Shown here piece by piece: positions 2,489 through 24,030 of a DNA stretch of 40,782 nt. The position numbers and the translations under genes are program-made. Origin of the DNA: Lachnospiraceae bacterium (GTDB lineage: Bacteria > Bacillota > Clostridia > Lachnospirales > Lachnospiraceae); contig JAFZVZ010000010.1 in NCBI GenBank assembly GCA_017617545.1, positions 1-40,782 on the forward strand, read 5' to 3'. Position 1 is the first letter of the stretch, and each line of letters begins with the position of its first letter. Below the pieces are notes generated by a model that was not told the DNA's origin, did no database searches, and was given only the letters and a program-made list of their open reading frames with translations.

Positions 2489-3499
2489 ATGAAATTTCTT
2501 CTTGAATTTCTGCGGGACCGGATATACCCAATCCTCTGGGGGATCATGGCCGTTGCGGTCTGTGTGCTGGTGTTCTGGCTCTACAGCATCCGCAGTGAAG
2601 CGATCGTGTACTCGGTGCTTTTGTGTGTCACGGTCGGTCTCGCTGTGCTGACGCTTGATTTTGTGAGGGAGCTCCGGCACCATCGCGCCCGCCTTCGCAG
2701 CATCCGCACGGCCTCGTACGAGAGGACGGATCTGGTTGATGAGTACGGTGTGGCGGCGACGGACTACGCGGATCTGGTGCAGGCGCTGTGGAAGCGCATC
2801 GAGGATATTGAGGACCGAAGGTTCACGGAGCGCCGGGAGGCGAAGGATTATTACACGACGTGGGTGCATCAGATCAAGACGCCGCTCTCGGTCATGCAGA
2901 TGCTTGCGAAATCCGAGGACACCGAGCTGAGCCGTGCGATCGTTCCGGAGCTGTTCCGCACGGAGCAGTACGTCGACATGGCGCTCGGGTACATCCGCCT
3001 GGGGGAGGACGCGTCGGACCTTGCGGTGCGCGAGTGCGATCTTGACGAACTGATCCGGGCATCGGTGCGGCGGTACGCGCCGCAGTTTATCGCGAAGAAG
3101 CTCTCATTTTCCTATGAACCGAATAAAGTGAAGGTCGTCACCGACGACAAATGGTTCACGTTCCTTCTGGAGCAGATCCTTTCGAACGCGATCAAATACA
3201 CGTACGAGGGCGGCGTGACCGTGACGCTTACGGACGACGCGAAGGTGATCGTGCGCGACACCGGCATCGGCATCGCGCCGGAGGACGTGCCGCGGATCTT
3301 TGAGAAGGGCTTCACCGGATTCAACGGGCGCCTTGCGGCGAACAGCGAGACGAACGGCGGGCGCGCGACCGGACTGGGGCTGTACCTGTGCCGGAAGGTT
3401 GCTCACAAACTGAATGTCGGGCTCTCCGTGGAGTCGGAGATCGGCAAGGGGAGCGCGTTTACCATCGATATGCGGAAGGAAGAGATTCTCACGGATTGA
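2489..3499 (+). CDS. Intramembrane-sensing histidine kinase, BceS-like
   Basis: A 336-residue kinase with two closely spaced membrane helices (about 14-34 and 39-57) and almost no extracellular loop, the hallmark of intramembrane-sensing BceS kinases that read the flux state of a BceAB-type transporter. The dimerisation box is TWVHQIKTPLSVM with the phosphorylated H127. The ATPase domain has an N box (EQILSNAIKYT), G1 box (VRDTGIGIAPEDV), F box (IFEKGFTG) and G2 box (ATGLGLYL), all intact. The start has a purine-rich GGAGAG upstream. It presumably phosphorylates the response regulator at 1740 when the permease at 5775 engages its antibiotic substrate. Confidence 0.9.
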   Translation: MKFLLEFLRDRIYPILWGIMAVAVCVLVFWLYSIRSEAIVYSVLLCVTVGLAVLTLDFVRELRHHRARLRSIRTASYERTDLVDEYGVAATDYADLVQALWKRIEDIEDRRFTERREAKDYYTTWVHQIKTPLSVMQMLAKSEDTELSRAIVPELFRTEQYVDMALGYIRLGEDASDLAVRECDLDELIRASVRRYAPQFIAKKLSFSYEPNKVKVVTDDKWFTFLLEQILSNAIKYTYEGGVTVTLTDDAKVIVRDTGIGIAPEDVPRIFEKGFTGFNGRLAANSETNGGRATGLGLYLCRKVAHKLNVGLSVESEIGKGSAFTIDMRKEEILTD

Positions 3500-3531
3500 C
3501 ACATAATGGAGTATATTTTCCGCAGTATTTG

Positions 3532-3540
3532 TGGTATACT
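3532..3540 (+). promoter_or_regulatory. Extended -10 promoter of the deacetylase gene
   Basis: TATACT at 3535-3540 is preceded by a TG at 3532-3533, one base upstream, an extended -10 element. A TTGACA at 3496-3501 is too far away (33 nt) to serve as its -35. The start codon lies 64 nt downstream, with a long GGGGGG-AGATC ribosome binding site. Confidence 0.5.
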
Positions 3541-3603
3541 TCTTGTGTTGCGGATTTTACGCAGAAATCAGCGGGATAATTTTATACATGGGGGGAGATC
3601 AGC

Positions 3604-4650
3604 ATGATCAAAAGAACGATTGCGTTTATTGTGTGTTGTCTGTTGGCGGGTTGCTTTCTGTGCGCCTGCAGCAGCACGGGAGGGGACACGGATCCCAAAG
3701 CGACAGTGACGGCCGCGGCACCTACGGGGGAGGCAGCGCCGACATTGACCGCGGAGCCTACGGACGAACCGGTTCCGACGGACACGCCGGTGCCGACCGA
3801 TACGCCGACACCGCTCCCGACGGAAACACCGACACCGGAGCCCACGGCGACACCGACGAACACGCCCACTCCGTCACCAACGCCGAGCGTTTTGGACAAG
3901 TATGAGGCGAAGAGGGCGGAGCTTCTGGCCAACGTCGATTACTATAATTCGCTCGACAACACGAGCGAGCATACATGGCAGTTCATCCGCAACAAGGACC
4001 ACAAGCCGTCCGGCACGCGCGAGTTTATCACGATCGCGGACTACGGCGCGTTCCATCTCAACAAGTACGTCAACGATGACGATAAGGTCATCTACCTGAC
4101 CTTCGACTGCGGATATCCTTCGGACAATACGGTGAAGATCCTCGACACGCTGAAGAAGCACAACGCGAAGGCAAGCTTCTTCGTAACCTCGATGTACTTA
4201 AAGAAGTGCAAGGATTACGCGATCCGTATGAAGGAAGAGGGGCACATGGTGTGCAACCACACCGTGAACCACAAGGACCTCCGCAAGGAGCCGGTGGAGA
4301 ATATTATCTCCGAGATCATGGACGTGGCGGAATACTTCTACGAGCTGACCGGCTATGAGATGGACCCGTTCTTCCGCACGCCGTCGGGCGCGTACACCGT
4401 GCGCCTTTTGTCCATCATCCGCGACGCGGGGTACCGCTGCGTGTTCTGGAGCATCGCCTACGGGGATTATCACAGTGATGATCCGCCGGCACCGGGCTAT
4501 GTGACGGATCATTTTAAGACGTATTATCACAACGGCGCGGTCGCGCTTATCCACAACGACTGCGATCGGAACGCGGAGGAGCTTGACGCGGTTCTCACGT
4601 TCCTTGAGGAGCAGGGCTACCGCTTCGGCCTGCTCGACGAGATTCCGTAA
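3604..4650 (+). CDS. PdaA-type polysaccharide deacetylase lipoprotein
   Basis: A 348-residue exported protein. The signal peptide ends in a lipobox, LAGC with C17 as likely lipidated residue (C22 is an alternative). Residues ~35-97 are a Thr-Pro-Glu stalk. A NodB-type deacetylase domain follows: TFDCGY (D168 catalytic), NHTVNH with zinc ligands H219 and H223, RTPSGAY, FWSIAYGDY and a LIHND motif. The position after the first Asp is Cys instead of the usual Asp; Bacillus PdaA has Asn there, and the spacing and the FWS motif also fit the PdaA branch, which makes muramic delta-lactam in the spore cortex. Here the enzyme is tethered to the outer face of the membrane and sits between the Bce two-component genes and their transporter, so a role in envelope modification under antibiotic stress is equally possible. 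It has its own promoter and terminator. Confidence 0.85.
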   Translation: MIKRTIAFIVCCLLAGCFLCACSSTGGDTDPKATVTAAAPTGEAAPTLTAEPTDEPVPTDTPVPTDTPTPLPTETPTPEPTATPTNTPTPSPTPSVLDKYEAKRAELLANVDYYNSLDNTSEHTWQFIRNKDHKPSGTREFITIADYGAFHLNKYVNDDDKVIYLTFDCGYPSDNTVKILDTLKKHNAKASFFVTSMYLKKCKDYAIRMKEEGHMVCNHTVNHKDLRKEPVENIISEIMDVAEYFYELTGYEMDPFFRTPSGAYTVRLLSIIRDAGYRCVFWSIAYGDYHSDDPPAPGYVTDHFKTYYHNGAVALIHNDCDRNAEELDAVLTFLEEQGYRFGLLDEIP

Positions 4651-4667
4651 CGGAACTATGCACACAT

Positions 4668-4700
4668 GGGAAATGTCGGGGAACCGGCATTTCCCGTTTT
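4668..4700 (+). terminator. Rho-independent terminator after the deacetylase
   Basis: A 12-bp stem (4668-4679 with 4684-4695, one T-G wobble) closed by a GGAA tetraloop and followed by GTTTT. The rest of 4701-5013 has no gene; it holds the BceR-like box, a promoter and a roughly 165-nt leader. Confidence 0.85.
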
Positions 4701-4770
4701 CTATGGAAATGCTGATGTTTCAGGCTTTCCGGAGCGCCGCCGGCGGACCGCACGAATGCGCAGCGTCATC

Positions 4771-4784
4771 TTACAAAATTGTCA
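4771..4784 (+). promoter_or_regulatory. BceR-type operator upstream of the transporter operon
   Basis: TTACA-AAAT-TGTCA at 4771-4784 fits the TNACA-N4-TGTNA inverted repeat known for BceR-like regulators. It lies about 55 bp upstream of the -10 box of the bceAB-like operon, a place where an activator could act. The match to the family motif is from memory and was not scored. Confidence 0.55.
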
Positions 4785-4838
4785 CATTGTTTTCGGAAAA
4801 TGTAACCGGAATCGATGTTTTCCGCATCACTGACAGCG

Positions 4839-4844
4839 TATAAT
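4839..4844 (+). promoter_or_regulatory. -10 box of the ABC transporter operon
   Basis: TATAAT at 4839-4844 with no good -35 at the expected spacing (TGTTTT at 4816-4821), which fits a promoter needing an activator such as the BceR-like regulator. It leaves a leader of about 165 nt before the ATPase start; no known riboswitch was recognised in it. Confidence 0.55.
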
Positions 4845-5013
4845 CGCAGATGTAAAGAGCAGTTCGGAAGAAACGGACGGGGGACCGTTAACGCAGCAAA
4901 CCGGACTGCAGGGACTGCGGATGGCTGTCGTGCATCGGGGGGAGAGCGTCGATCAGCCACCCGCAGGCTCCCGCACAGAATACGCGGCACGTGACCGCAA
5001 TACGGAGGCAGTT

Positions 5014-5778
5014 ATGAGTATCCTTGAAGTAAGTAATTTGCAGAAAGTCTACACCACGAGATTCGGGGGGAACAAGGTGCAGGCGCTCTCGAACGTGACG
5101 TTCACGGTCGAGAAGGGGGAGTATGTGGCGATCATGGGCGAGTCGGGTTCCGGCAAGACGACGCTTTTAAACATTCTTGCGGCGCTTGACCGGCCGACGT
5201 CCGGCAAGGTGCTCCTTGAGGGCAAGGAGCTCTCGGGTATCAAGGAGTCGGAGATGGCAACATTCCGCCGCGAGAACCTCGGGTTTGTGTTCCAGGAGTT
5301 CAACCTGCTGGATACATTTTCCATAAGAGACAACATTTTACTTCCGCTCGTATTGAACGGAGCGAAGCCCTCGGAGCTTGAGGGAAAGCTTCAGCCGATC
5401 GCCGAGAGACTCGGCATTGCGGACCTGCTTGCGAAGTACCCGTACGAGGTGTCCGGCGGACAGAAGCAGCGCACGGCCGTAGCGCGTGCTTTGATCACGG
5501 ATCCGAAGCTGATCCTGGCTGATGAGCCTACCGGTGCGCTCGACTCGAAGTCGACCGACGATCTCCTGCGCGTGTTCCGCGATATCAATTCGCAGGGACA
5601 GACAATTCTCATGGTTACCCATTCGACGAAGGCGGCAAGCCACGCTTCACGCGTCTTGTTTATCCGCGACGGTGAGGTGTTCCACCAGATTTATCGGGGC
5701 GACAGCACGAACGAGCAGCTGTACCAGAAGATTTCGGACACGCTCACACTTCTTACGACGGGCGGTGAGAAACGATGA
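5014..5778 (+). CDS. ABC transporter ATPase, BceA-like
   Basis: A 254-residue ATPase of the MacB/BceA group. Walker A is GESGSGKTT, the Q-loop lies in GFVFQEFNLLDTF, the signature is VSGGQKQR, and Walker B is LILADEPTGALDSK, with an H-loop in MVTHS. I chose the ATG at 5014 because ACGGAGGC lies just upstream; the longer in-frame reading from 4921 is untranslated leader. The stop overlaps the permease start (ATGA at 5775). With the permease it should form the transporter that recognises and frees lipid II-cycle intermediates from peptide antibiotics and signals to the BceS-like kinase. Confidence 0.92.
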   Translation: MSILEVSNLQKVYTTRFGGNKVQALSNVTFTVEKGEYVAIMGESGSGKTTLLNILAALDRPTSGKVLLEGKELSGIKESEMATFRRENLGFVFQEFNLLDTFSIRDNILLPLVLNGAKPSELEGKLQPIAERLGIADLLAKYPYEVSGGQKQRTAVARALITDPKLILADEPTGALDSKSTDDLLRVFRDINSQGQTILMVTHSTKAASHASRVLFIRDGEVFHQIYRGDSTNEQLYQKISDTLTLLTTGGEKR

Positions 5779-20431: not shown

Positions 20432-20980
20432 ATGATATTGGACAATATTTTGAAACGTTTGCTTCGCAGAAAAGTTGAACGCAAGGTTGAGAATGCCATG
20501 GAGACGGCGATCGACAATGCACTCACGCCCAAGAAGACGACTACGGTTAATGCAACCACTCCCGCAGCACCTGCCGCAGATCCTATTCCGGCACCGGTGG
20601 ACGGTGGTTTCTTTGCGCAGACCGCAGCGGCACAAACCGCTCCGGAAGTGGACGATTGGGATACCGAGTACAACCATGACATCAACTATTTCCGCCCGAT
20701 CATCCAGGAGAATTTTCCGGACTATACGCTTGAGGAAAATGTTCCTTTTGCACAGCTGGTGCCCGGCGTGAAATACAACTATCCGCCTTACACGTTCGTG
20801 ATGCGCAAGAACGGCCAGATCGCGCTTGTCATCTCTCTGCAGAGCAAGTACGGCTACAAGAAGGGCCTGCATACCATGTGCGAGTGGAAGGCACAGCTGA
20901 AGCACATCAACTTCTTCATCGAGTATCCGGACCGCGTGGAGTATGTCGTGAACCGGATCCGCGAGAACCTTGCATTTTAA
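20432..20980 (+). CDS. Hypothetical protein upstream of the structured RNA and reverse transcriptase
   Basis: A 182-residue cytoplasmic protein. Residues 1-35 form a basic amphipathic helix (ILKRLLRRKVERKVE), 36-75 are an Ala/Pro/Thr-rich linker, and 80-182 are a folded alpha/beta-like domain with NYFRPIIQENFPDY and KYNYPPYTFVMRKNGQIAL. The C-terminal domain has the feel of a small nuclease-fold or DNA-binding domain, but I cannot name it. ACGGAGGGG lies 8 nt before the ATG at 20432; the longer reading from 20270 has no ribosome binding site. It ends 4 nt before the structured RNA segment, so it is probably on the same transcript. Confidence 0.65.
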   Translation: MILDNILKRLLRRKVERKVENAMETAIDNALTPKKTTTVNATTPAAPAADPIPAPVDGGFFAQTAAAQTAPEVDDWDTEYNHDINYFRPIIQENFPDYTLEENVPFAQLVPGVKYNYPPYTFVMRKNGQIALVISLQSKYGYKKGLHTMCEWKAQLKHINFFIEYPDRVEYVVNRIRENLAF

Positions 20981-20984
20981 TTCG

Positions 20985-21286
20985 GTAAAGTGAGAAGAAC
21001 GCAAGTATCTGCACCTGCAGCGGGCGCAGCATGGTCCTTGTGGTACTGTGCAGGTAGTCGGCCATGTATCGTTCGGTAAGATTGGAAATTTTCCAATCTT
21101 TAAGGATTTCTTCTCTTTACAATTGGCTCACCGGAAGCACTGCTTTCCGAGAGGAACAAAGGCTTCCGGGTGGGCGAATAATGCCGCGCGGCGGATATGC
21201 CGTGCGGAACGGTTAAGTATGATGGTGTGGGATGTCTGTGCCCTGTACCTCGCGGAAAGGCGAAGCTTCGGGGGAGGGCTTCTCAC
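20985..21286 (+). ncRNA. Highly structured non-coding segment upstream of the reverse transcriptase
   Basis: The 381 nt between the hypothetical gene and the reverse transcriptase carry no convincing ORF but many helices. GTAAA (20985-20989) with TTTAC (21116-21120), stacked with GAGAAG (20992-20997) with CTTCTC (21110-21115), closes a 136-nt domain. Within it are ACCTGCA (21013-21019) with TGCAGGT (21049-21055) and an 11-bp hairpin 21078-21088 with 21090-21100. Then CCGGAAGC (21131-21138) with GCTTCCGG (21162-21169) encloses TTCC-GAGA-GGAA (GNRA loop), a 9-bp hairpin 21184-21192 with 21199-21207 follows, and a split stem at 21224-21249. GTGAGAAG (20990-20997) can alternatively pair with CTTCTCAC (21279-21286), closing the whole region. 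It resembles the RNA found next to reverse transcriptases in retrons, DRT systems or group II introns, but I cannot assign it to a family. Confidence 0.5.
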
Positions 21287-21361
21287 ATTTTGTTTCATTG
21301 GGAATTCCGGTGCGGGCAGTATGACCGCATCGGTGGGGGAGCACGGTCGGAGGCGTGAGAG

Positions 21362-22591
21362 ATGGAGTTTTTGGAAGGGCTTGTCAACCCTGAGGTGTGG
21401 GAGGAGTACTACACATACTGCGCCGGCCGGGACTTTGTGACGAAGACGGAGCTGCGGGATCTCCGGCGGAAGATCGATCGCATGGATTATCTGCCGACGG
21501 TCAGACGCTGGCTGGAGGAAAGGCATTTTCCGTGTGCGCAGCGAAAAGTCATCAACAAGATGGGGACGGACAAGAAGCGCATCGTCTACACCTACGACGG
21601 CGGGGACAGCCTGCTTCTGAAGATGATCGCCCGCCACCTGCATGAATATGACGGCCTGTTCGCGCCGAACCTGTTCTCGTTCCGGGAGGGCAGCGGCGTG
21701 CGCAAGGCGATGGAATACCTTCGGTACCGGCCGAACATGGGCAACCGCTACGTGTACAAGGCCGATGTCCACGACTATTTCAACTCGGTCGATCCCGCGC
21801 GGATCGTGCCGATGGTGAAGGATGCGCTGAAGGACGAGCCGATCCTGTGCGAGCTGATCGTATCGATCCTGGAAAATCCATGTGTGCTCGCGGACGGAGT
21901 TCCGACGGAGGAGCGCAAGGGGATCATGGCGGGGGTGCCCGTCTCGTCGTTCCTCGCTAACCTCTACCTGAGCGGGATGGACTGGCACATGTACCGCGAG
22001 GGCGTGCTGTACGCGCGTTACGCGGACGACATCATCGTGTTCGCGGACAGCGAGGAGGAGTTGCAGAAGCATAAGACGTACATCCTGGACACGCTCGCCT
22101 CGATGGGACTTTCCGTCAACCCGAAGAAGGAGTTTACAAGCCGCCCCGGCGAACCGTGGACCTTCCTCGGGATCATGTACAACAACGGAATATTCGATGT
22201 GTCGGAGGCGTCCGCCGAGAAGATGAAGGGGAAAATGAAGCGCAAGGCGCGCCGGTTCCGCCGTCTCATGACGCGGGGCAACAGACCCCTGAGCGCGGAG
22301 GAAGCGATCCGCCGGTACATCGCGGTGTTCAATATCAAATTTTACGAGAACCGGAACGAGAACGACCTGACGTGGGCACGGTGGTTCTTTCCGATCATCA
22401 CAACGTCGGAGACGCTGGCGGAGCTCGACCGCTACATGGTGGAGTGCATCCGCTACATCCGCACGGGGAAGCACACGAAGGCCAACTACAACCTTCGCTA
22501 CGAAACGATCAAGACGTACGGTTTCCGAAGTCTTGTGCACGAATATTACCGCGGGCTCAAGGAGCCGAAAAGCGGAGAGGAGCAGGAATGA
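21362..22591 (+). CDS. Stand-alone reverse transcriptase (YADD), class unassigned
   Basis: A 409-residue RNA-directed DNA polymerase. Palm motif A is YVYKADVHDYFNSVD (D135), motif B is GIMAGVPVSSFLANLYLSGMD, motif C is YADD (Y220-D223), and motifs D/E lie in LSVNPKKEFTSRPGEPWTFLG. The RT1/RT2 region has VYTYDGGDSLLLKMI and FREGSGVRKAMEYL. A basic thumb-like helical tail follows (MKGKMKRKARRFRRL). There is no HNH endonuclease domain, and the next gene overlaps the stop, so no intron domain V can follow. Retron marks (NAXXH, VTG) and the SQ motif of diversity-generating elements are not seen; motif B is closest to group II-like or 'unknown group' enzymes. GGAGG at 21349-21353 lies 8 nt before the ATG. 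With the upstream structured RNA it may form a defence or cellular RT-RNA system. Confidence 0.9.
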   Translation: MEFLEGLVNPEVWEEYYTYCAGRDFVTKTELRDLRRKIDRMDYLPTVRRWLEERHFPCAQRKVINKMGTDKKRIVYTYDGGDSLLLKMIARHLHEYDGLFAPNLFSFREGSGVRKAMEYLRYRPNMGNRYVYKADVHDYFNSVDPARIVPMVKDALKDEPILCELIVSILENPCVLADGVPTEERKGIMAGVPVSSFLANLYLSGMDWHMYREGVLYARYADDIIVFADSEEELQKHKTYILDTLASMGLSVNPKKEFTSRPGEPWTFLGIMYNNGIFDVSEASAEKMKGKMKRKARRFRRLMTRGNRPLSAEEAIRRYIAVFNIKFYENRNENDLTWARWFFPIITTSETLAELDRYMVECIRYIRTGKHTKANYNLRYETIKTYGFRSLVHEYYRGLKEPKSGEEQE

Positions 22592-24030
22592 GAAGATTAC
22601 GCAGCTTAGTATTGACCGCGCTTTGCACGGTTGTCATTCTCGCGATGACAGCCTGCAGTTTTCCGTGGTCTTCCGACGATGACGACGGGAAGAAGGAAGT
22701 GTCGCCGACGCCGACGCACGCAGTGACGGAGAAGCCGACGGACACGCCGGTTCCGGAGCCTACTGCGACGGAAACACCTACCCCGGAACCCCTTCCGACG
22801 GATACCCCGACACCGGAGCCGACACCCACGCCGGAGCCGACCCCGACGGAGACACCGACCCCGGAGCCTACGCCTACGTCCTTGTGGCCGACGCCCGAGG
22901 TGAGCGGGGAACCGACACCGGAGGTAAGTGGTGAGCCTACGCCTACGTCCTTGTGGCCGACGCCCGAGGTGAGCGGGGAACCCACACCTGAGGTGAGCGG
23001 GGAGCCTACACCGACCGAATCGTGGCCGACGCCGACACCGGAAGTGAGCGGGGAGCCTACACCGACGCCGTACAGCGGAGTAACGTATCAGCTCACGGGA
23101 CTTGTGTACGTTACGCGCGCGACCGGCATTTACTCCGAGCCGTATGAGGAATCGCTGAAACTCGATGACGTGCAGGTCGGCGAGTTTGTGGCTCTGGACC
23201 TGGACACGAGTGTGTTCAGCGACGATGATTGGTACCGCGTTCAGTACCGCAACAAGCAGTACGGATACATGCGCAAGGAAGCGTCGACGGAGCAGATCCC
23301 GGCGTCCTGCATCATTCCCGGGCGCGAGCTTTTAGTCGCGGACGACTGGGTCACGCTGTGCGATGCGATCCGCGATGACTACTGGAAGGATCATACCGCG
23401 GGAGCCGGCAGCAGCTATGTCGAGAAGAAGGTTGCCGACGACGCGAAGGCGATCAAGGAGTACCGGAAGAAGTACACATTTGTCGACGGAAGAAACGACC
23501 GCAAATTCCGCGAGATCACCTACGCGGAGATCGTCGAAACAAAGCTTTTCGTCAATACGAACATCGAAGGACCGAACTTCGTGGCGTACGGATACGACGC
23601 GGACGGACAGATGGTGTACCTGCAGGAGTTCATCCTCCGCGGCGAGGAAGGCGCGACACCGTATGACAGCTGCCGGATCGCGACAGATCAGACAGGCGAG
23701 CGCGTCAAGGAGTACGAGTTCGTGCTGAAGGGTGACAACCGCGTGCTGATCTTCGGTGATGAGGACAAGCCGGAGGCGGTGCTCACATACCATTACTACG
23801 AGAACATCACTGTCGGAACCCCGTACTGCAGACTGGACATGATCTACGATGAGGACGGCCGCCTGGACAACATCGTGATGACCATCACGGGAGATGATTC
23901 GCACAGGTACAATACATTTTTCGAGTACGAGAAGAACAGCGACCTGTTGATCCGCATGGTGGAGATCGCGGAGCGCGCGTCCGACGGCGAGTGGCTGGTA
24001 CAGTCCGGACGGGAGCTGGTCAAGCAATAA
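22588..24030 (+). CDS. Surface lipoprotein with repeat stalk and SH3-like domain, coupled to the reverse transcriptase
   Basis: A 480-residue lipoprotein: signal peptide with lipobox MTAC (C23), an acidic patch (DDDDG), then a long Thr-Pro-Glu stalk to about residue 165 containing tandem copies of a 23-residue unit (TSLWPTPEVSGEPTPEVSGE type). An SH3-like domain follows (VYVTRATGIYSEP and later DDWYRVQYRNKQYGYM), then ~270 residues of unknown, beta-rich sequence. SH3-like domains of this sort often bind cell wall. Its ATG overlaps the reverse transcriptase stop (ATGA at 22588-22591), so it is translationally coupled to that gene. A strong terminator at 24049 ends the transcript. A role with the reverse transcriptase is suggested only by the overlap. 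Confidence 0.82.
   Translation: MRRLRSLVLTALCTVVILAMTACSFPWSSDDDDGKKEVSPTPTHAVTEKPTDTPVPEPTATETPTPEPLPTDTPTPEPTPTPEPTPTETPTPEPTPTSLWPTPEVSGEPTPEVSGEPTPTSLWPTPEVSGEPTPEVSGEPTPTESWPTPTPEVSGEPTPTPYSGVTYQLTGLVYVTRATGIYSEPYEESLKLDDVQVGEFVALDLDTSVFSDDDWYRVQYRNKQYGYMRKEASTEQIPASCIIPGRELLVADDWVTLCDAIRDDYWKDHTAGAGSSYVEKKVADDAKAIKEYRKKYTFVDGRNDRKFREITYAEIVETKLFVNTNIEGPNFVAYGYDADGQMVYLQEFILRGEEGATPYDSCRIATDQTGERVKEYEFVLKGDNRVLIFGDEDKPEAVLTYHYYENITVGTPYCRLDMIYDEDGRLDNIVMTITGDDSHRYNTFFEYEKNSDLLIRMVEIAERASDGEWLVQSGRELVKQ
22864..23001 (+). repeat. 69-bp tandem duplication in the lipoprotein stalk
   Basis: The unit starting at 22864 is repeated from 22933 with near identity over at least 47 nt, and a third, more divergent copy follows. 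The period of 69 nt encodes 23 residues, so copy-number change keeps the reading frame and would only alter stalk length. Confidence 0.7.

Follow-up and report, generated by a model that had tools for sequence, protein, structure and literature searches.

We describe here a locus in a 40.8-kb contig of a rumen Lachnospiraceae bacterium (GCA_017617545.1, JAFZVZ010000010.1; the whole of this stretch is referred to below as the window) in which the gene for a partner protein (20432-20980), a conserved pseudoknotted RNA (20985-21120), a leader (21121-21361) and the gene for a reverse transcriptase (RT) of class UG26 (21362-22591) follow one another on the + strand. Comparison of related loci shows that partner, RNA and RT form a conserved unit in this order, and this unit is kept in many gut bacteria. 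On balance we favor the reading that these are the parts of a three-component UG26 RT system in which the RNA is the dedicated template of the RT. The three corresponding database entries, PADLOC RT_UG26 for the RT, PADLOC RTasCOG2852 for the partner and Rfam RT-5 (RF03026) for the RNA, gave no function where consulted, and they are here joined into one testable machine. It should be noted that the initial annotation of this DNA had called the RT-RNA pair undescribed and had not listed the partner gene; given the RT-5 match this was too strong, as each part already has a database entry. In the literature searched, no description was found of the complete system, nor of the closing helix, the pseudoknot or the partner fusions. 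No paper was found on RF03026, or joining RT-5 to UG26 or COG2852 to RT defense, in a search that the primary papers on RT classes and RNA motifs lay outside, and the link between UG26 and RT-5 may already be known. PMC8934634 treats UG1 to UG28 among the unknown RT classes; its main text does not mention UG26 by name.

The Reverse Transcriptase Is a Full-Length Member of Class UG26

The RT gene is an intact open reading frame (ORF) of 409 amino acids running from an ATG at 21362 to a stop ending at 22591, with YADD at residues 220-223 and RVT_1 as the only match in a Pfam scan, in agreement with the stand-alone RT originally recognized. At that stage the protein could not be placed in any named class, a position which has to be revised: PADLOC RT_UG26 matches it with 510.6 bits (E 5.8e-154) over profile positions 1-396 of 398, that is, over its full length. 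The runner-up model, a generic RT, scores 118 bits, and is followed in the PADLOC ranking by UG4, UG17 (DRT10), UG27 and a Cas1 model, and then by Drt9 and Drt3a, the first named DRTs. The motifs NAxxH and VTG are typical of retron RTs, and SQ of the RTs of diversity-generating retroelements (DGRs). A motif search of the RT sequence found none of these and no HNH motif, as had been claimed, the DGR comparison being limited to this mark since template and variable repeats were not searched. In NCBIfam the group II maturase, Drt3a, retron and Drt2 models all remained far under their cut-offs. By the features tested, the RT is a full-length UG26 member and not the RT of a retron, a DGR or a group II intron. 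The ratio of nonsynonymous to synonymous substitution (dN/dS) of the RT against its nearest named relative, from the uncultured Lachnospiraceae metagenome-assembled genome RUG14085 (locus L036, 91% identical), is 0.10, a value indicating purifying selection; the same comparison gives 0.22 for the partner, and 0.06 and 0.08 for the flanking genes RarA and Ddh.

A Conserved RNA with a Closing Helix and a Pseudoknot

Rfam RT-5 accounts for the body of the RNA: it matches 21009-21111 at 74.1 bits (gathering score 45.7) and is the sole Rfam match above gathering score in the window. The same scan found no group II intron family and no retron RNA family at the locus. The structured RNA predicted upstream of the RT is confirmed. 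This RNA had been drawn as a segment of ~300 nucleotides (nt) extending to 21286. Its start, 20985, is also where the outer closing helix drawn here begins. Orthologs show conservation and covariation, the check proposed with the initial annotation, over 20985-21120; the conserved part measures ~136 nt, the rest belonging to a lineage-specific leader.

Four elements of the RNA fold are shown by comparison of the sequences: an outer closing helix, a small hairpin, a central stem-loop with a pseudoknot, and a hairpin at the 3' end. The outer closing helix P1 is formed by a 5' strand at 20985-20999 and a 3' strand at 21108-21120, with changes on both sides at 12 of 13 pairs. The small hairpin P1a (21001-21012, GCA...UGC), which lies between the closing helix and the pseudoknot, shows GC...GC stems in most rows of the alignment and matching variants such as GU..AC, GUGC..GCAC and GCCGG..CCGGC (read by eye, uncounted). 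The 5' strand of the pseudoknot (ACCUGCA, 21013-21019) is followed by the central stem-loop P2/P4/P5 (21021-21075), for which both the Rfam structure and covariation speak, and the 3' strand of the pseudoknot (UGCAGGU, 21049-21055) is held in the P5 loop; the six base pairs join 21013-21018 with 21050-21055. The 3' hairpin P6 (21079-21099) has eight pairs, and the last unpaired segment of the RNA is the junction between P6 and P1, UUUAAGGAUUU (21099-21109). Neither the closing helix nor the pseudoknot is in the structure line of Rfam for RT-5, and the RNA gains both from the present analysis.

A first structure, containing the Rfam helices, the outer closing helix and the pseudoknot, was drawn from 24 sequences (the window and relatives). 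In this alignment 86.4% of the cells pair and 32 of the 43 pairs are changed on both sides, values reached by none of 500 shuffles, and sliding the partners by 1-3 columns reduces the paired cells to 40-48%. A covariance model of our own, R1, was then built with the closing helix and without the pseudoknot, and the larger covariation alignment comprises 83 rows, 82 of them distinct. Here the pseudoknot, which is not in R1, pairs in 100% of cells with two-sided changes at all six pairs. The closing helix is paired in 98.9% of cells over its eight-pair core, where seven pairs have two-sided changes, and in 67.3% over its outer five pairs. In this alignment, too, none of 500 shuffles attains the observed values. 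Since R1 contains the closing helix the alignment is biased in its favor, which makes the pseudoknot the cleaner test; with many related rows, the cells do not count as independent events. P6 is paired at 83.0% for seven of its pairs and 86.8% for one, all with two-sided changes. As a single sequence, 20983-21121 folds more stably than 200 shuffles (z -3.54), as does 21122-21361 (z -3.60). The pseudoknot-free minimum free energy structure of 20983-21121 contains the closing helix and the 3' hairpin and misses the conserved central fold, which for this reason rests on comparison. Templates of UG RTs are known for few classes, and for UG26 the question of what is copied becomes directly testable through an RNA of ~136 nt whose covariation extends over 82 distinct sequences.

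The RNA and the Reverse Transcriptase Travel Together

The association of the RNA with UG26 was followed through three sets of genomes. In 80 loci selected by their RT (the best 80 of 543 RT relatives) R1 matches 74, nine of them by construction because their sequences were already in the model, which leaves an independent count of 65 out of 71. The weakest match (L061, partly N-masked) has an E-value of 0.0055 and all the remaining ones 3.8e-8 or better; in 10 further loci taken earlier, R1 matches nine, the exception being L027. Two of the six unmatched loci (L070, L111) start too near a contig end, and in the other four (L081, L085, L093 and L113) no RNA was found in the DNA examined, which for L113 comprised only 500 nt upstream. 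In a set of 145 relatives the 25 genomes with RT-5 at E<=0.001 (24 of them above gathering score) are the same 25 that have a full-length UG26 RT (26 loci, all E<=4e-144), and the RT adjoins 26 of the 27 RNA loci, the 27th being the sub-threshold L027 (35 bits). The third set, 392 genomes drawn evenly from the order, does not select on the RT: the RNA is present in 22 genomes, UG26 at E<=1e-100 in 25, and both in 21 (Fisher p 8e-30), in all of which RNA and RT are adjacent by coordinates. The 22nd genome with the RNA, G754, has RNA, RT (39% identical) and partner side by side, its RT not being among the matches at E<=1e-100. Beside 80 other RT loci on viral contigs R1 found nothing at E<=1. 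By their co-occurrence, RNA and RT travel together and the RNA is tied to class UG26, in keeping with the earlier proposal of an RT with a structured RNA dedicated to it.

The RT of G754 (L210), which the RNA and the partner adjoin, aligns to the window RT over 433 columns, suggesting an internal insertion. A separate observation concerns genome G707, where a single ORF of 1281 amino acids (L211:1126-4968, +) ends in a divergent UG26-like RT and has a long N-terminal part that by eye is radical SAM-like; no RT-5 RNA was found in the stretch taken around it.

A Partner Protein Precedes the RNA

Clustering of the neighboring ORFs with no prior choice returned one family, which the window shares with 43 of the 80 loci. 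It is the gene directly upstream of the RNA save for one copy downstream of the RT in L051, where the RT is flanked by a copy of the partner domain on either side. The window protein (20432-20980, + strand, 182 amino acids) consists of an N-terminal helix, a linker and a C-terminal alpha/beta domain. With a profile of the latter (50 members, 49 from the loci then searched) the domain was found directly upstream in 67 of the 74 RNA loci, with a median of 14 nt between its stop codon and the RNA. PADLOC RTasCOG2852 matches 48 of the 50 aligned partners at E<=0.001, the window protein included, although its own match is weak (E 4.6e-5, 21.9 bits). An AlphaFold2 model of the window partner (mean predicted local distance difference test score, pLDDT, 81.5) shows a helix at residues 2-31, amphipathic by eye, a low-confidence linker and the alpha/beta domain, with pLDDT >=90 in every ten-residue block from residue 81 save the last. 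Foldseek gave nothing at E<=0.001, which makes any assignment of the fold tentative; its top match is the restriction enzyme BstEII (E 3.3e-3, TM 0.31), followed at E ~0.2 by SfsA, EcoT38I and PvuRts1I, and the model thus weakly suggests a restriction-endonuclease-like C-terminal domain. The ExK nuclease motif by which a PD-(D/E)XK enzyme would be recognized is absent from the window partner, which has SLQ. As ExK occurs in just three of the 50 aligned partners (E in 32), most of these domains probably bind rather than cut.

The N-termini of the partners are variable. Most begin, by eye, with a short helix of the MGLLSKLFG type and some with a CxxC zinc-ribbon-like start, likewise noted by eye and backed by Pfam as a zinc ribbon for the Prevotella partner (L095), which also has Sel1 repeats. 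In L071 the ORF directly upstream of the RNA (2945-5572, +) fuses a CxxC start, tetratricopeptide repeats and a TIR domain (E 3.7e-11) to the partner C-terminal domain. The four loci with upstream DNA and no RNA (L081, L085, L093 and L113) also have no partner, a joint absence which suggests a shared loss or gain of RNA and partner, and that the two work together. Three of these, L081, L085 and L113, group as a single clade within UG26 (support 99/96; tree of 42 UG26 rows) that has full-length RTs and, in the DNA examined, neither RNA nor partner, which raises the question of what their RT copies.

Comparison with Known Systems and a Candidate Template

Class 2 UG systems are described as using a cis-encoded RNA as template, DRT9 copying a U tract (PMC12483538). 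DRT3a is reported to copy ACACAC, held in a loop whose position matches that of the DRT9 and DRT10 templates (PMC13174585), and DRT10, whose RT is UG17, to combine a 137-nt RNA with a SLATT partner and to make tandem repeats by means of an A-B-A' template just after a stem-loop (PMC12632851). By profile, the RT and partner studied here are members of RT_UG26 and RTasCOG2852, which PADLOC labels only as DRT, with no RNA component and no mechanism shown, and Rfam likewise gives neither a function nor an RT class for RT-5. Of the systems described, DRT10 resembles the present one in having three parts, an RNA of similar size and a stem-loop followed by a template loop, and its class is among the RT profiles nearest to ours. 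The differences are that the RT is of another class (101 bits with UG17 against 510 with UG26), that the partner is the endonuclease-like RTasCOG2852 and not SLATT, that the order is partner-RNA-RT in place of the RNA-SLATT-RT reported for DRT10, and that no co-varying template repeats were found. DRT9, as described, shares with it a UG-type RT and a structured RNA and has its U-rich template near the active site; that template is a universally conserved poly-U, whereas the commonest form of the junction here is UUUAA, variable bases and UUU.

On the favored reading the RNA would be freed from its transcript, in many lineages possibly through transcription ending at the closing helix, and the RT would bind it and copy a short single-stranded template within it. 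The 11-nt junction after P6 and before the closing strand has, by eye, conserved ends and a variable middle and is placed like the template loops of DRT9, DRT10 and DRT3a; its position and variability, together with an RNA length like that of DRT10, lead us to take it as the likely template, UUUAAGGAUUU in the window. Were the flanking UUU to re-anneal like A and A' of DRT10, the predicted product would be single-stranded DNA (ssDNA) repeats of TCCTTAAA. The partner would sense the complementary DNA (cDNA), or be restrained by it, and act as effector. By analogy with UG systems and in view of the TIR fusion, an antiviral role, that is, defense against phages, appears most likely.

Among 68 distinct junctions of the 83 rows, 51 hold a direct repeat of at least 3 nt, with a mean of 3.26 nt against 2.44 in composition shuffles. 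Halves swapped between species score alike (below), so the repeats stem from the conserved U runs and co-evolution is not shown. A second candidate for template repeats of the A-B-A' type, the variable P4-P5 loop, was rejected (mean 2.80 nt against 2.77 with species-swapped halves, p 0.45) on 64 loops of 6-14 nt out of 79 distinct ones, longer loops and one with an N being dropped. A bolder proposal, which we consider doubtful at roughly one chance in three, is a telomerase-like immune system in which the RNA template UUUAAGGA is recopied into ssDNA repeats; on reading these, a modular partner, its nuclease fold dead, would trigger its N-terminal effector (membrane helix, TIR or other). If it were true, an orphan Rfam family would gain a function and repeat synthesis would extend to a further RT class with a new type of effector.

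Evidence Against a Template Role and Alternative Explanations

A number of results weigh against the template reading or against a defensive role. The junction repeats are no better than those of species-swapped halves (3.24 nt, p 0.43; p 0.19-0.49 over four settings, and p 0.37 when U-only repeats are left aside). R1 with filters off, run on two DRT10 loci, gave a best E-value of 3.8 in one (L197, in which no Rfam match came near threshold) and nothing in the other (L198); homology with the DRT10 RNA was rejected on these two loci. The best NCBIfam match of the RT is the group II maturase (107 bits, cut-off 300), and a profile of 42 UG26 RTs searched against solved structures finds first an RNA-directed DNA polymerase (8bgj) and group II intron and CRISPR-fused RTs (112-97 bits), with Drt2 well behind these at only 53 bits. 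Four of the 25 UG26 genomes of the even draw (G707, G733, G752 and G501) have divergent RTs, 30-33% identical, and no RNA; R1 at E<=1 found nothing in the stretches taken around these RTs, G501 being truncated. Seven of the 74 RNA loci have no partner (L039, L059, L063, L067, L076, L077 and L105), and L039 is a close relative. The window system also lies amid housekeeping genes, in one conserved place in five relatives, and has no full-length RT relative on the viral contigs, plasmids or phages searched, both of which are atypical of mobile defense islands.

These last points are those expected of a domesticated, non-defensive system with a role in, for example, stress or genome maintenance and with vertical inheritance in the genus, which of the alternatives fares best and is nonetheless unlikely. 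The RNA and RT are present in 18 of the 22 genomes of the genus, the RT is under the purifying selection noted above, and L036-L040 share the flanks of the window (RarA, ACT-domain, GNAT, lipoprotein and Ddh genes), the P-type ATPase flank being detected only in L038-L040 of these. On viral contigs the RT relatives are at most 32% identical (best 80 of 209) and none has the RNA; on plasmids and phages no place exceeds 60% identity, and the only one to span 80% of the RT, which lies on a plasmid, has 23.5% identity. UG26 is named among the RTs of cold-seep viruses in PMC10504277, which stands against the absence of UG26 from the viral contigs scanned here. An empty-site comparison with genus members lacking the system (G012, G015) found only Ddh of the window genes in the stretches taken. 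Against domestication stand the partner fused to a TIR domain (L071) and the largely different neighborhood of L042-L045, where no other window genes were detected save distant relatives of the P-type ATPase in L043 and L045. The other loci among the best 80 of 543 are mostly from Clostridia of animal guts, plus one Prevotella strain, and since this strain has all three parts the system moves between phyla.

Less probable again is that the RNA is mainly a cis-acting leader, its closing helix and a T-run forming an attenuator that sets RT expression while the RT copies something else. The RNA does sit between partner and RT, and in 49 of 74 loci the closing helix is followed by at least five T, as compared with 110 of 3700 random windows, so that it resembles an intrinsic terminator in most lineages. 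Against this, the pseudoknot is elaborate and paired throughout, and the RNA is kept both where the T-run is short or absent (25 of the 74 loci have fewer than five T) and where, as in the window and L036, a leader of at least ~240 nt precedes the RT. A retron-like arrangement, with the RT starting from a branching G inside an a1/a2-like closing helix and copying P6 as a very short msd, is improbable, for although all rows of the 24-sequence alignment have a G immediately within the closing inverted repeat, the RT has neither NAxxH nor VTG, the St85 retron model of NCBIfam scores 59 bits against a cut-off of 235, and no retron RNA family matches.

The Leader and the Downstream Gene

We return to the template system favored above for the DNA between its RNA and its RT. 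Between the 3' end of the RNA and the point where the RT match begins there are, in the median, 33 nt (74 loci), and as the RT begins this soon in most relatives there is no room there for the helices of 21122-21361, which were found in close relatives of the window only. In the lineage of the window the T-run that comes next to the closing helix in most relatives is gone, and the ~240-nt leader (21121-21361, + strand), which has further hairpins of its own including a GTGTGGGA...TCTCACA stem and is outside the conserved RNA, precedes the RT. The stem GTGTGGGA-GTC...GGGCTTCTCACA (21225-21300) is common to the window and eight of the 10 close relatives read, with variable insides; L013 and L017, two of the 11 sequences read, have no 3' half of the motif and were omitted from the leader alignment. 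The leader was rejected as a repeated element because the motif is single-copy in its own genome. A strict pattern of it, too strict to match that genome, occurs once each in four of 31 genomes, all of the same genus and all, judged by coordinates, between RNA and RT, and the stem is possibly a regulatory element. In L022 (genome G089) the spacer between RNA and RT holds, by eye, about three head-to-tail copies of a ~38-nt unit (GCTTTACTATGCTGTAGTC...).

Directly after the RT, and overlapping its stop (22591) as first reported, begins at 22588 a gene (22588-24030) for a protein with a lipoprotein-like start and a long repeat region of the PTPTPEPT type, relatives of which are syntenic in L036-L040.

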